This document shows positions 24,730 to 29,709 of a DNA stretch of 64,000 bases, piece by piece. This DNA comes from Sneathiella aquimaris (lineage in GTDB: Bacteria; Pseudomonadota; Alphaproteobacteria; Sneathiellales; Sneathiellaceae), in contig NZ_CP112881.1 in the NCBI RefSeq assembly GCF_026409565.1, positions 1,349,501-1,413,500 on the forward strand, in the 5' to 3' direction. Each line of letters starts with the position of its first letter. The first letter of the stretch is position 1. The notes under the pieces are model-generated. The model did no database searches. It was given only the letters and a program-made list of their open reading frames with translations, and was not told where the DNA came from. The position numbers and the translations under genes were made by a program.

Positions 24730-24820
24730 GTGCGTGTTGCTAACATGATTTGTTTAATTTCATCACTTGCGCCCGTCTTTTGGTGGTTTAGAATTCGCCC
24801 CAAATGAAGAGAGGTCTGAT

Positions 24821-26206
24821 GTGTTTGATTTGCTGCAAAAGCTGAAAGAAATTGTCGGCGAAAACCATGTGTTGACAGGAAACGCTGTTACTGAACGGTC
24901 CAGCGATTACTGTCACGACGCCTATGGTGCCGGGCTTTTGGTCCGACCTGCTACAACAAACGAGCTTTCCCGGATTTGTGCGCTTGCTCATAACAAACAG
25001 ATCAACATGGTTCCCCATGGAGGTTTAACCGGTTTGGTGGACGGGACAAGCAGTCAGCAAGGGGATCTTGTTGTTAGTTTTGAACGATTGAACAACGTGA
25101 TTAGGGTCGACAAAGAGCAGAACATCCTGATTGCAGAGGCAGGCGTGACGTTGGAAACCGCATTGAACAAAGCAACGGAAGTCGGAATGATGCCGGGAGT
25201 TGATATTCCGTCCAGAGGGAGCGCCACATTGGGGGGAATGGTGTCGACTAATGCCGGCGGCGTCAGGGTTTTACGGTACGGTATGATGCGCGAGAATATT
25301 CTTGGACTGGAAGCGGTGCTTTCAGATGGAACCGTTCTATCATCAGTGAATACATTGATGAAAAACAACGCAGGCTTTGATTTAAAGCAGTTGTTTATTG
25401 GAACAGAAGGGCGGTTGGGTTTTGTCAGTCAGGTGGCGCTAAAGCTGCACCCAAAACCGATCGACGAAGAAACCTCGCTGATTGCAGCACAGAGTTTTGA
25501 AACCCTCGTCAAAATACTGTCAGAAGCGCGGCAATTTCTTGGATCGGACCTTTTGTCATTCGAAGCAATGTGGCCGGAATATTACACGCTTACGACCAGT
25601 CAGCCTGGTTTTGGTAGCAAACCTTTGCCCGAAGGATATCCGATATATGCTGTCCTCGAAACCGGCCGCTGGCAGAAGGATGTTCCTCATCGACTGGACG
25701 TCTTTCTTGAAAAGATGTTCGAAGAGGAACTGTTGCTCGACGCGGTATTGGCTAAATCTGAATCGGAACGGCAATCCATTTGGCGGGCGCGAGAGGATAG
25801 CGATGCGGTACAGTTTGGTTTTCCGACGAACCGATCTTATGACATTGGTTTTGAGCTTTCTGACATGAACGGCTTTGCATTGGCGCTGCAGGATGTGATG
25901 GCAATAAAATATCCGGACTGTCACCTTTTCTTTTTTGGCCATATGGGGGACGGTAATCTTCACGTGATGTTGGCAGGTGATAAGGAAGCCCTGCACGATA
26001 CCCTCAGGGTTGATGACCTTGTTTATTCGCTTGCCGCGCAGTTTAAGAATAGTAGTCTTTCGGCCGAGCATGGGATCGGATTAGAGAAAAAGGCCTTTTT
26101 GGATCGATCCCGATCAGTTGAAGAGATAAAGTTAATGAAGCGTCTGGCAAAATTGATGGGCGGACACATTAATGCCGGAAAGGTAGTTGATACTGAAAGC
26201 GACTAA
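24821..26206 (+). CDS. FAD-binding oxidase, GlcD / D-lactate dehydrogenase-like
   Basis: A 461-residue FAD-linked oxidase (FAD_binding_4 and FAD-oxidase C domains). NMVPHGGLTGLVDGTSSQ at about residues 65-82 is the PP-loop region; SRGSATLGGMVSTNAGGVRVLRYG is the FAD contact; FFGHMGDGNLHVML and LSAEHGIGLEKKAFL are the C-terminal active-site parts. It is a 2-hydroxyacid dehydrogenase relative, separate from glcDEF and unaccompanied by GlcE or GlcF. The start is GTG 24821 with AGAGAGG 6 nt before it; a TTG upstream is less likely. The stop overlaps the converging marR stop by 4 nt. The substrate is unknown. Confidence 0.85.
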   Translation: MFDLLQKLKEIVGENHVLTGNAVTERSSDYCHDAYGAGLLVRPATTNELSRICALAHNKQINMVPHGGLTGLVDGTSSQQGDLVVSFERLNNVIRVDKEQNILIAEAGVTLETALNKATEVGMMPGVDIPSRGSATLGGMVSTNAGGVRVLRYGMMRENILGLEAVLSDGTVLSSVNTLMKNNAGFDLKQLFIGTEGRLGFVSQVALKLHPKPIDEETSLIAAQSFETLVKILSEARQFLGSDLLSFEAMWPEYYTLTTSQPGFGSKPLPEGYPIYAVLETGRWQKDVPHRLDVFLEKMFEEELLLDAVLAKSESERQSIWRAREDSDAVQFGFPTNRSYDIGFELSDMNGFALALQDVMAIKYPDCHLFFFGHMGDGNLHVMLAGDKEALHDTLRVDDLVYSLAAQFKNSSLSAEHGIGLEKKAFLDRSRSVEEIKLMKRLAKLMGGHINAGKVVDTESD

Positions 26207-26706
26207 TAAGGGCTATCGGGGTTGATTTGATCCAGATCACCAGCGTTTCTTGCCAGCGTGCGCAGCATCCTCAGTAACTCGGAAATTTCGTTTTCCCCAA
26301 GCCCTTTACGCAATTCTGTTTCTCGTAACAGGGTGTCTTCCACCATTTTTTCGTAAAGGGCGACGCCCTTAGAGGTCAGTTTAAGAAGGCGCGGCTTTTT
26401 TTTCAGGGAGCTGTCGCAGTCCTCCACGCACTCCAGAGCCTCCAGTTTGCTTAGTGAACGACTCACCAGCGACTTATTCATGCTGCTTGTTTTGCTGATT
26501 TGCGCTGCCGTTGTACTTTGCTCCATCGCGAGGGACACCAAGCACCGCCACTCCACCACGCCAATCCCATATTTTTTTCTGTAGTGCGCAGACGCGCCTC
26601 TTGAGAGTCGATTTGCGATCACGACAAAAAAGAATGTCAGGTAGTTATCAAGCTCAAGTACTTTTTGCCCATTTGAAATATGAAATGGTTTTATCGCGTC
26701 CTGCAT
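26203..26706 (-). CDS. MarR family transcriptional regulator
   Basis: About 167 residues from ATG 26706 (an in-frame start 16 codons earlier exists but the ribosome-binding sites of both are weak). The winged HTH includes YRKKYGIGVVEWRCLVSL, TAAQISKTSSMNKSLVSRSL and the wing KLEALECVEDCDSSLKKKPR. It diverges from the MBL-fold gene; a 20-bp inverted repeat lies in its upstream region, so it probably represses itself and the MBL / FAD monooxygenase / DUF2783 genes, with an aromatic ligand as a guess. The stop overlaps the FAD oxidase stop by 4 nt. Confidence 0.87.
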   Translation of the reverse strand: MQDAIKPFHISNGQKVLELDNYLTFFFVVIANRLSRGASAHYRKKYGIGVVEWRCLVSLAMEQSTTAAQISKTSSMNKSLVSRSLSKLEALECVEDCDSSLKKKPRLLKLTSKGVALYEKMVEDTLLRETELRKGLGENEISELLRMLRTLARNAGDLDQINPDSPY

Positions 26707-26730
26707 AATGGAGCACCCTGACTCATTTTT

Positions 26731-26750
26731 TAAGTTTACATAGCAACTTA
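26731..26750. promoter_or_regulatory. Putative MarR operator
   Basis: TAAGTT (26731-26736), 8-nt spacer, AACTTA (26745-26750). The 20-bp length and 6-bp arms fit a MarR dimer site, and it lies 25-44 bp upstream of the chosen marR start, facing the divergent MBL operon. Confidence 0.5.
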
Positions 26751-26882
26751 GCACAGGTATCGTTCCTTAAACAATAAGCCAAACGTGAAAATGACAAATG
26801 GCGGCTCAGCTGGGCAGCCTTATGGTGATATCGCGTTCAGGCTTGAAATGAACAATGTGTGACCAATCAAAGGACCAATATC

Positions 26883-27842
26883 ATGGTTAAACCCTTCGCA
26901 TCATCGGCGGATCTGTCGGAAAAAAAAGAAACCCTGGAAATCCTGTCAGAAGGGGTTTATGCCCTGACCGCAGAAGGGGATCCCAATGTTGGTGCTGTCG
27001 AAGGGGAAGATTTTATCGTTGCTATTGAAGCAAGAGCAACACCAGCGGCGGCCCGTGACTGGTTAACAGAACTTCGTAAACACACAGATAAACCGGTTAA
27101 ATACCTTGTGCTGACCCATTACCATGCTGTCCGGGTTCTTGGGGCGTCAGCATTTGATGCAGAAGAAATTATTACACATGATGTCACGGAAAAATTGATC
27201 AATGAACGGGGCAAGCAGGATTGGGATTCTGAATATGGTCGGATGCCGCGATTGTTTAAAGAGCCGGAAGGCATCCCGGGTTTAACGCATCCAACAAAAA
27301 CATTTTCCGATACTATGAGCATTGATCTGGGGGGAGATCGCGGCGAACTCGTTTTGGAATATTGTGGCCGCGGGCATACCGCAGGCGATATCGTAGCCTG
27401 GTTACCGAAACAGAAGATCCTGTATGCCGGGGACCTGGTTGAGGCTCAGGCTGCTTTGTATACGGGCGACGCCTTTCATATGGATTGGTCAACGGACACG
27501 CTTGATAAAGTAAAATCCTATGGTGCAGAACAATTGATTGGTGGGCGCGGCGCGGTTGCCACCGGACGGGACGCTGTTGACGCTGCCATCGAACAAACCC
27601 GGTCCTTCCTTTTGGGAATGCGGAAACACACAGAAGCGGTTCACAAACGTGGCGGCACGCTGAAGGAAGCATTTCTTGCCACCCATGAAGCCCTCGCGCC
27701 TAAATTCGGGGCATGGCCGATTTTTGAGCACTGCTTGCCCTTTAATGTTCAGCGCCTTTGGGATGAATATGATGGGATTGACTGGCCCCGTATCTGGACA
27801 GATGAGCGGGATCGGGAAGTTTGGGCCCAGTTACAGGACTAA
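26883..27842 (+). CDS. MBL-fold protein with altered metal motif
   Basis: A 319-residue metallo-beta-lactamase-fold protein. The first metal motif reads THYHAVRV (His 79 and His 81), where hydrolases have HxHxDH: the Asp and following His are replaced by Val 83 and Arg 84. Other positions are present: GRGHTAGD (His 165), YAGDLVE (Asp 184) and a late FEHCLPFN His. This suggests one metal at most, or a non-hydrolytic role. ATG 26883 has AAAGGA 9 nt upstream; a GTG 8 codons earlier is less likely. It begins the MarR-controlled cassette and the next gene starts about 20 nt after its stop. Confidence 0.82.
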   Translation: MVKPFASSADLSEKKETLEILSEGVYALTAEGDPNVGAVEGEDFIVAIEARATPAAARDWLTELRKHTDKPVKYLVLTHYHAVRVLGASAFDAEEIITHDVTEKLINERGKQDWDSEYGRMPRLFKEPEGIPGLTHPTKTFSDTMSIDLGGDRGELVLEYCGRGHTAGDIVAWLPKQKILYAGDLVEAQAALYTGDAFHMDWSTDTLDKVKSYGAEQLIGGRGAVATGRDAVDAAIEQTRSFLLGMRKHTEAVHKRGGTLKEAFLATHEALAPKFGAWPIFEHCLPFNVQRLWDEYDGIDWPRIWTDERDREVWAQLQD

Positions 27843-27862
27843 TTCAGAGTGGGGTAAGTGCC

Positions 27863-29521
27863 ATGATGAACATAGACGGTATTCCAGTATGGAAAGAATA
27901 TCCTCCTTCATCCCTACCAGATTTAGCATCTTCTGGAACAGAGCATCTGGAAACGCTGATCGTTGGCGGTGGGCCAGTCGGTTTGTCGTTGGCACTTGAT
28001 TTAGGACGGCGGGGACGACGGGTTGTTGTGGTGAACGCGCTGCCCTTCATTCCCCGCGGCTCGAAGGCGATCTGTTTTTCCAAGAGAAGTCTTGAGATCT
28101 TTGATCGATTGGGGATAGGAGACCGGCTCGTTGAAAAAGGAGTGGTCTGGGATAAGGGTAAGGTTTTCTGGAAAGCGGAAGACGACCCTGTTTATGAATT
28201 TGATCTGTTACCGATAAAGGATCAAAAATATCCTGCTTTTATAAATATTCAGCAATATTACGTCGAGGAATATTTGTTGGATGAGATTTCAACCTACGAT
28301 AATATTCAAATCCGGTGGCGCCACGAAGTGGTGGCCATTTCAGCTGATCAGCGTGGGGCGGATGTTACGGTTGAAACGCCAGAAGGGTCGTATTCAGTAA
28401 GAGCTGATTATGTACTGGCCTGCGACGGTAATAAATCGCCTGTGCGGACTATGCTGGGGCTGGATTTTGAAGGACGGGTCTTCGAAGACAATTTTCTGAT
28501 TGCCGACGTAAAATTCAAGGAAGAATGGCCAACGGAACGGTGGTTCCGTTTTGATCCGCCCTATCCCGGCTGGTCAAGTTTGGTTCACAAGCAGCCGGAT
28601 GACGTTTGGCGGCTGGATTTTCAGTTGGGTTGGGACATCGATCGACAGGAAGCCATAAAACCAGAAAATGTTGAGCCTTTTGTTTCGGGATTGCTGGGGC
28701 CGGATGTCGATTATGATTTCGAATGGATATCCCTATATACCTTTCAATGCCGACGCATGGAAAAGTTTGTCCATGGGCGCGTGATTTTTGCAGGTGATTC
28801 CGCGCATGTTGTGTCACCCTTTGGGGCGCGTGGGTGTAATGGCGGAATGCAGGATATTGATAACCTGGGCTGGAAACTGGATGCTGTGCTGGACGGTGAG
28901 GCACCAGAAGCCTTGTTACAGAGCTACAATGACGAAGCGACGCATGTTGCGGACGTCAATATTCTGAACTCTACCCGTTCTACAGATTTTATTACGCCAA
29001 AATCTGAAATGGCGAGGGTGTTTCGGGATGCGGTGTTAGATCTGGCCAGAGAACATTCCTTCATTCGCCCCTTTGTGAATTCTGGCCGGTTGTCGGTTGC
29101 GGTTCCTTATGCTGGCTCTTCCTTAAATAGCGAGGGGACCGATGAAGAATTTCAAACAGGACCAGAGCCCGGCGCTCCGTTGATTGATGCACCGGTAAAC
29201 GGGAATAATTGGTTGCTTAATCAAGCAACAGAGGCCTTTAACGTCCTCTATTTTGGATCGAAGCAAGAGGTTAAATCCGCAATTGAAAGCTGTCTGCATG
29301 GACAGGGGCACGTCATTCAAGTCACTAAGGGGGGCGAGGGGGCACCTGCGGGTCTAACGGATCATACTGGTTTGGCCTATGCGCGATACGGGGCCGATGA
29401 AGGTTGCGTCTATCTGGTTCGACCGGATCAGCATGTGGCCGCCCGCTGGACACAATTTGATCCGGTGGCTTTGACGCGGGCTTTGGCATGCGCAAGCGGG
29501 AGAAAGGCACAAACAGGATGA
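27863..29521 (+). CDS. FAD-dependent aromatic monooxygenase (MhpA-like)
   Basis: A 552-residue class A flavoprotein monooxygenase. The FAD-binding GGGPVGLSLALDLGRRGRRV lies at about residues 36-55; a DG-type motif YVLACDGNKSPVR follows near 192-204; and VIFAGDSAHVVSPFGARGCN is the GD motif. A thioredoxin-like C-terminal region follows, as in 3-(3-hydroxyphenyl)propionate hydroxylases. The substrate is unknown; relatives hydroxylate phenols or aryl acids using NAD(P)H and oxygen. ATG 27863 follows GGGGTAAG. The stop TGA overlaps the next start as ATGA, so the DUF2783 partner is translationally coupled. Confidence 0.88.
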   Translation: MMNIDGIPVWKEYPPSSLPDLASSGTEHLETLIVGGGPVGLSLALDLGRRGRRVVVVNALPFIPRGSKAICFSKRSLEIFDRLGIGDRLVEKGVVWDKGKVFWKAEDDPVYEFDLLPIKDQKYPAFINIQQYYVEEYLLDEISTYDNIQIRWRHEVVAISADQRGADVTVETPEGSYSVRADYVLACDGNKSPVRTMLGLDFEGRVFEDNFLIADVKFKEEWPTERWFRFDPPYPGWSSLVHKQPDDVWRLDFQLGWDIDRQEAIKPENVEPFVSGLLGPDVDYDFEWISLYTFQCRRMEKFVHGRVIFAGDSAHVVSPFGARGCNGGMQDIDNLGWKLDAVLDGEAPEALLQSYNDEATHVADVNILNSTRSTDFITPKSEMARVFRDAVLDLAREHSFIRPFVNSGRLSVAVPYAGSSLNSEGTDEEFQTGPEPGAPLIDAPVNGNNWLLNQATEAFNVLYFGSKQEVKSAIESCLHGQGHVIQVTKGGEGAPAGLTDHTGLAYARYGADEGCVYLVRPDQHVAARWTQFDPVALTRALACASGRKAQTG

Positions 29522-29709
29522 GTTTAATTAAAGAGATTAATACGGCCTCTCATGACGAAATTTATGAAACAATCATAAAAATGCATGAAAACCTGAATGA
29601 GGAAGAGAGTGCGCTTGTGAACGCGAAACTGATCCTCATTCTGGCCAATCATATTGGGGACGCTAATGTTATTTCACAGGCCGCAGATTTGGCACGGGGC
29701 GATCATTAA
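29518..29709 (+). CDS. DUF2783-like small protein
   Basis: A 63-residue protein of helical composition, MSLIKEINTASHDEIYETII leading to a core KLILILANHIGDANVISQAA and a short charged end. I recognise it as DUF2783, a family usually found directly after FAD monooxygenases of this kind. There is no catalytic motif; it may stabilise or regulate the monooxygenase. The ATG overlaps the previous stop by 4 nt, and the gene ends 17 nt from a converging gene. Confidence 0.78.
   Translation: MSLIKEINTASHDEIYETIIKMHENLNEEESALVNAKLILILANHIGDANVISQAADLARGDH

Follow-up and report, generated by a model that had tools for sequence, protein, structure and literature searches.

What does a compact four-gene cassette, encoding a flavin monooxygenase, a metallo-beta-lactamase (MBL)-fold protein, a DUF2783 protein and a divergent MarR regulator, do in the alphaproteobacterium Sneathiella aquimaris, and on which compound does it act? 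The cassette lies in a 64,000-nucleotide stretch of contig NZ_CP112881.1 (positions 1,349,501 to 1,413,500; hereafter the window), in a genome of 3,941,851 bases that forms one contig with a completeness of 100 (G000, the host). A first-pass annotation, made from the sequence alone, had read it as an aromatic-compound unit of unknown substrate. The aromatic part of this proposal stands, and the substrate class can be narrowed: in all likelihood, the cassette is a peripheral module that converts a hydroxyphenylacetate (HPA), most likely 3-HPA, to homogentisate. We infer these reactions from gene neighbourhoods in relatives, from papers on the MhaAB hydroxylase, and from a host gene pair, encoding a VOC-fold protein and a fumarylacetoacetase (FAH)-type protein, with a shared operator. 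The cassette is very probably a member of a known pathway, newly placed in S. aquimaris, rather than a new system.

The module and its likeness to MhaAB

The order of the four genes and their overlaps are as first described, with refined starts (Table 1). The MBL start codon agrees with the beginning of the family alignment, and an alternative GTG start at 26754 is also open for the MarR gene. The MarR and MBL genes are 176 bp apart, the monooxygenase gene starts 20 bp after the MBL stop, and the ATG of DUF2783 (29518-29520) and the TGA of the monooxygenase (29519-29521) share bases in an ATGA, which makes translational coupling of these two genes plausible.

A scan of named genomes gave at least 594 pattern matches, 584 of which encode a relative. 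The best 80 of these 584 served as our locus set; they are the closest ones, found with patterns from our own alignment, and not a random sample. The monooxygenase gene is directly followed by DUF2783 in 77 of the 80 loci, and the MBL gene is present in 73, in 66 of them just upstream of the monooxygenase; the rare co-occurrence that the first pass had regarded as a sign against the unit was thus not seen. An hmgA gene accompanies the module in 31 loci, a divergent hmgA in one and an FAH gene in 38 (hmgA and/or FAH in 39). In congeners, the MarR, hmgA, FAH, MBL, monooxygenase, DUF2783 and maiA genes form one cluster, and plasmids of Neorhizobium, Paracoccus (two), Sphingobium, Dinoroseobacter and Roseomonas carry MBL, monooxygenase and DUF2783 beside hmgA and fahA. 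Plasmid relatives with 54-58% identity stand beside hmgA, fahA and maiA; the Dinoroseobacter stretch is without maiA. In Sphaerotilus the module adjoins fahA, with no hmgA in the stretch. Our own profiles found hmgA, FAH and maiA in a Halomonas record that came without annotation, and none of the three in a likewise unannotated Variovorax record. The neighbourhoods in relatives support an aromatic catabolic unit in which DUF2783 would be an accessory of the monooxygenase, as first suggested.

The partners are also closely co-inherited. Across 60 genomes, the host included, DUF2783 occurs in 24 and the MBL gene in 22, both in 21, DUF2783 only in three (G004, G008 and G010, where the contig breaks off near its gene) and MBL only in one (G018). 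Both are also present where they are not neighbours (G005, G007, G009 and G024).

The monooxygenase scores 724 bits against NCBIfam PRK08132 (cut-off 416) and stays below the cut-off of all five MhpA-named NCBIfam models listed (best 202 bits vs 390), so that of the former label "MhpA-like" only the class A flavin monooxygenase family is kept. The G35/G37/P38/G40, D188-G189 and G311-D312 motifs are invariant in the family alignment. Relatives were found in Paraburkholderia, Cupriavidus, Delftia and Comamonas by the same scan, and on a FastTree tree the window enzyme belongs to a subclade that does not include most enzymes of Rhodobacterales and Burkholderiales.

In the accessible passages of the papers cited here and below, MhaA is a flavoprotein of 566 residues and MhaB a coupling protein of 60 residues, which together form 3-HPA 6-hydroxylase; homologues in Paraburkholderia xenovorans LB400 (560 and 60 residues) adjoin hmgA (PMC3053370). 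MhaA of Pseudomonas putida U is listed there as AAY16572. The P. putida U enzyme is described, via later papers, as specific for 3-HPA, with 4-HPA not taken (PMC3053370, PMC10983741). In LB400, Bxe_A2727 showed an increase on 3- and 4-HPA that was not statistically significant, and Bxe_A2726 went undetected (PMC10983741); mhaAB is unmentioned in PMC8449657. Judged by its length, gene order and partner family, the DUF2783 protein is probably MhaB. Its model has a predicted three-helix fold, for which a fold search found nothing with an E below 6, and the term DUF2783 appears in a single paper of the literature searched. In Bradyrhizobium diazoefficiens, bll2330-bll2329-bsl2328 (VOC protein, FAD oxidoreductase and DUF2783) is a predicted operon with reduced levels in an nnrR mutant (PMC6710368), and the module may accordingly be under low-oxygen control elsewhere.

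The MarR protein has HpaR as its best NCBIfam match, below the HpaR cut-off. It is 28-34% identical to MarR proteins in hmg/mha clusters of relatives and 27% identical to the one beside the host gene for 4-hydroxyphenylpyruvate dioxygenase (HPPD), a value that marks the two host proteins as separate regulators; they may read one operator type. The operator-like repeat proposed earlier is upheld in one form: the AGTT-N8-AACT site occurs once in the 64-kb window, between MarR and MBL. As a plain palindrome it fails, the best one in this intergenic region being equalled by 173 of 500 shuffles. A -35-like TTTACA at 26735 overlaps the site, in a promoter scan near chance (7 found, 4.2 expected). 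In congeners, 19 AGTT-N8-AACT sites fall within 13.0 kb of matching intergenic regions vs 7 in 562 kb elsewhere, the form having been derived from three of these 19. In the host, an identical 20-mer, ATAGTTTCATATGTAACTAT, precedes both the VOC-FAH pair and HPPD, in opposite orientation; these are its only two exact genome sites, and a third site with three mismatches lies within a reading frame, its neighbours not classified. On the strength of this shared sequence, the VOC-FAH pair and HPPD probably form a small homogentisate regulon. The cassette operon itself is probably inducible. A 28-bp palindrome at 26816-26843 was dropped as operator: its best second copies in the 20-kb host VOC and HPPD stretches match 17 and 19 of 28 letters, and since neither is a good copy, AGTT-N8-AACT is preferred.

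Table 1. Features of the cassette and of the associated host loci (W, position in the window; H, position in the host genome, G000:C1)
Feature	Position	Strand	Remarks
MarR-family regulator, 167 aa from ATG	W 26203-26706	-	divergent from operon; PF12802 above cut-off
Predicted MarR operator TTAAGTTTACATAGCAACTTAG	W 26730-26751		no strand; AGTT-N8-AACT arms at 26733-26748
MBL-fold protein, 319 aa, presumed mononuclear	W 26883-27842	+	PF00753
Class A FAD monooxygenase, MhaA-like, 552 aa	W 27863-29521	+	PF01494, E 3e-63; predicted hydroxyphenylacetate hydroxylase
DUF2783 protein, 63 aa, MhaB-like, putative coupling protein	W 29518-29709	+	PF10932, E 1.4e-21
GlcD-like FAD-linked oxidase	W 24767-26206		below GlcD cut-off
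Operator ATAGTTTCATATGTAACTAT, copy before VOC-FAH (L175)	H 1949743-1949762		palindromic
Operator ATAGTTTCATATGTAACTAT, copy before HPPD (L084)	H 2084285-2084304		palindromic
VOC-fold protein match	H 1949800-1950324		340 bits
FAH-type gene	H 1950359-1951366		PF01557 with PF18288
HPPD gene	H 2084372		

The GlcD-like oxidase gene flanks the cassette and converges on the MarR gene, with which it shares the last 4 bases; no such gene was seen as a module part in the clusters of relatives. Between 33097 and 44441 of the window, pcaD, pcaH, pcaG, pcaB and pobA are supported by family models, and pcaQ, pcaC, pcaIJ, a TRAP transporter and an AraC regulator were named by eye only. Much of this pca neighbourhood is kept in the congener G004 (L072).

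Predicted ring cleavage in the host and its relatives

Several observations weigh against a role of the cassette in forming homogentisate. Its neighbours in the host are protocatechuate and not homogentisate genes, and 41 of the 80 loci are without an hmg or FAH gene inside the fetched stretch. Among the 14 best-scoring loci (L095-L108, several on short contigs), hmgA is found only in L098 and FAH only in L098 and L099, and eight of 101 module genomes have none of the three ring-cleavage types described below. The equation of DUF2783 with MhaB draws on length, gene order and partner family. The window operator shares only its arms with the VOC/HPPD operator; an exact site is missing from nine of the 28 loci listed (L064-L066, L068, L069, L085, L176, L180 and L184), and the only one of L054 lies elsewhere. 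Lastly, the host genome has no TIGR01015 hmgA match, no TIGR01266 fumarylacetoacetase and no maiA above the cut-off (best 88.8 bits vs 171), so that the downstream route would rest on the VOC protein and the FAH-type gene, with no gene assigned to the isomerase step.

These two genes lie about 0.57 Mb from the cassette, and the predicted ring-cleavage gene among them is not of the HmgA family. The 181-residue VOC protein emerged from comparing the neighbourhoods of HmgA-less clusters, and it was reached before the title of PDB 9u42, "Homogentisate 1,2-Dioxygenase from Acinetobacter", had been seen; an earlier sequence search had shown this entry only as "Glyoxalase". The model of the host protein (pLDDT 86) matches 9u42 with 63% identity and a Foldseek E of 3e-24. 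H8, H85 and E133 are invariant in 18 aligned rows, and the extradiol signature, in the form that we assume for it, is found in all 18 rows and in 1 of 6278 other open reading frames. With 9u42, a VOC-type homogentisate dioxygenase is already deposited as a structure; among the titles and abstract openings of the matches listed, no paper named one. The FAH-type gene has its ATG 1 base past the VOC stop. The idea that the host is without any homogentisate degradation was given up once the two genes had been found side by side.

Our conclusions on how ring-cleavage types are distributed lean on the 60 relatives and on 47 named genomes without a local hmgA, all searched whole; tables of 79 and 101 genomes are biased, because for loci with a local hmgA the VOC gene was sought only within the locus. 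VOC was counted above 300 bits in the 60 genomes and above 250 bits in the 47, a line drawn after seeing the gap (the next scores below it are 184 and 202 bits). Relatives of the VOC protein at E 1e-20 occur in 31 of the 60 genomes, and 11 exceed 300 bits. FAH of either type is present in 34 genomes, and 33 of these have hmgA, a divergent hmgA or VOC above the line: 17 canonical hmgA (two also with VOC), seven divergent hmgA and nine VOC alone, with G031 (VOC-like, 184 bits) the one with none. The 26 genomes without FAH have no VOC above 300 bits (0/26); canonical hmgA occurs there in G019, where the cluster is cut by the contig end, and divergent hmgA in G035. Among the 47 named genomes, canonical hmgA lies elsewhere in 13 (two with VOC), divergent hmgA in seven (one with VOC) and neither in 27, of which 20 have VOC at 250 bits or more (Fisher p 9e-5 over the 47 genomes; relatedness is ignored in these tests). 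In loci with monooxygenase and FAH, VOC is found in 9 of 9 without hmgA vs 8 of the 51 that have an hmgA, divergent ones included. On the FastTree tree, whose labels mix whole-genome and local searches, the VOC-only state needs 15 changes, at least nine of them forced by well-supported branches; many forks are weak.

Two further groups were seen. L112, L158 and L162 (Delftia tsuruhatensis and Acidovorax) as well as L111, L123 and L149 carry the module with neither hmgA type and no VOC above 250 bits, the VOC relatives of the Delftia and Acidovorax module genomes reaching only 167-180 bits; there may be another ring-cleavage enzyme, or a subtype of VOC, in these genomes. The divergent HmgA-like family (about 380 residues; 65-100 bits to TIGR01015, below the cut-off) is represented by L052, L059, L094, L168 and other weak matches. 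Its genes adjoin HPPD, FAH or the module, and it seems to be a third homogentisate dioxygenase type.

The MBL-fold protein

The changed metal motif noted in the first pass is real: HYHAVR replaces HxHxDH and GRG replaces GHG in 16 of 16 aligned relatives, an invariance that makes the change a family trait. H79, H81, H165, D184 and H283 are invariant as well, and V83, R84 and R222 occupy other metal-ligand positions, so that no more than one seemingly complete metal site is left. The retained H79, H165 and D184 form what we take to be the ETHE1-type triad. PDB 8d2z, an MBL superfamily protein, is a full-length match (E 7e-88) with identical HYHAVR and GRG motifs; the record seen assigns it no function. 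The protein lacks the two-metal ligand set expected of a class B metallo-beta-lactamase, and the B1 model gives 65 bits vs a cut-off of 200.

Between the window cluster and that of L057, the MBL proteins share 80% identity but the monooxygenases only 46%. The MBL gene thus seems to have been exchanged between monooxygenase lineages, and its product probably shares a metabolite with the module rather than a tight complex. In G018 it occurs with FAH and maiA and without DUF2783, and it is absent from HmgA-less congeners that have only the HPPD route (G011, 99% complete, and G006, 66% complete). Together with the co-inheritance with DUF2783, this pattern suggests a step near homogentisate in the HPA route. 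That the MBL protein is the missing ring-cleavage enzyme was rejected: it is also present beside HmgA, and it is lacking in G011 and G006, which have VOC, HPPD, FAH and maiA. Our best guess, and a weak one, is a mononuclear metallohydrolase that clears a by-product, for instance homogentisate lactone. The invariant H79, H81, H165 and D184 with changed residues at the other ligand positions would also suit a mononuclear iron oxygenase or redox partner, which we regard as unlikely: the 25 NCBIfam matches listed, out of 51, are to models of metallohydrolases or beta-lactamases, and every one of them scores below the cut-off.

Proposed reactions, alternatives and known systems

In the route that we propose, the MhaA-like flavoprotein would hydroxylate the ring of HPA and, by analogy with MhaB, would need DUF2783 as its coupling partner. 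MarR would repress the operon at AGTT-N8-AACT until the substrate or homogentisate relieves the repression. The ring of homogentisate would be opened by the unlinked VOC-fold dioxygenase, and the FAH-type protein encoded right after it would split the opened product into fumarate and acetoacetate. The MBL protein, a regular member of the module, may act as a mononuclear metallohydrolase keeping the pathway clear of, for example, homogentisate lactone.

The same module could serve another isomer, as a 4-HPA 1-hydroxylase with a side-chain shift or as a 2-HPA 5-hydroxylase, with homogentisate still the product. The module is found in relatives from Delftia and Comamonas, and a Delftia-type strain reportedly uses a 4-HPA 1-hydroxylase; the separate subclade of the window enzyme points in the same direction. 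For LB400, in which MhaA was higher on both 3- and 4-HPA without significance, the authors propose that MhaAB may take 4-HPA (PMC10983741). The reported restriction of the P. putida U enzyme to 3-HPA speaks against this alternative, and we consider it somewhat unlikely.

A different aromatic acid would be hydroxylated if the cassette had been recruited to the protocatechuate pathway, whose pca/pob genes lie about 4-15 kb downstream, a neighbourhood kept in G004, in a host without canonical hmgA. This is very unlikely, given that plasmid relatives with 54-58% identity stand beside hmgA, fahA and maiA, that the MBL and DUF2783 partners are retained, that VOC followed by FAH is kept in both the host and G004, and that the operator form is common to the HPPD and VOC genes. 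Finally, the monooxygenase gene adjoins HPPD in two HmgA-less congeners (G005 and G009), as might be expected of an enzyme acting on homogentisate itself in place of the ring-cleaving dioxygenase. Both congeners have the VOC enzyme, whose solved relative 9u42 is titled homogentisate 1,2-dioxygenase, and an HmgA type accompanies the monooxygenase in 32 of the 80 loci, which leaves this idea scarcely credible. Conversion of HPA to homogentisate, with 3-HPA as the most likely substrate, is the reading that we retain.

It offers a testable function for the Pfam domain DUF2783 and flags a closely co-inherited MBL enzyme as an orphan without an assigned reaction. Since a VOC-type enzyme can stand in, a genome without hmgA need not lack homogentisate degradation; DUF2783 and the VOC enzyme are two useful re-annotations. 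More tentatively, and with doubt as to whether all parts hold jointly, the HYHAVR/GRG MBL may be an unrecognised mononuclear metalloenzyme of HPA catabolism acting on homogentisate, its lactone or quinone, DUF2783 a widespread coupling family of flavin hydroxylases, and HmgA and VOC enzymes may have been swapped many times behind the module.

Among known systems, MhpA, the 3-(3-hydroxyphenyl)propionate hydroxylase, shares the class A flavin monooxygenase fold family, whereas the window enzyme belongs to PRK08132. The host VOC protein has the same fold as 9u42, but its gene is unlinked to the cassette and paired with a fumarylacetoacetase-type gene, and its function in the host is one that we infer. 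The closest likeness is to MhaAB of P. putida U, also proposed in LB400: a flavoprotein of 552 residues here and 560-566 there is followed by a partner of 60-63 residues, with a link to homogentisate genes that relatives show in their loci and that the host shows through operator form and genome content, not through adjacency. The host cassette differs from MhaAB in its MBL gene, which is unmentioned in the accessible passages of the MhaAB papers (PMC3053370, PMC10983741), in its MarR control and pca-gene neighbours, and in an unlinked VOC-type instead of an HmgA-type dioxygenase.

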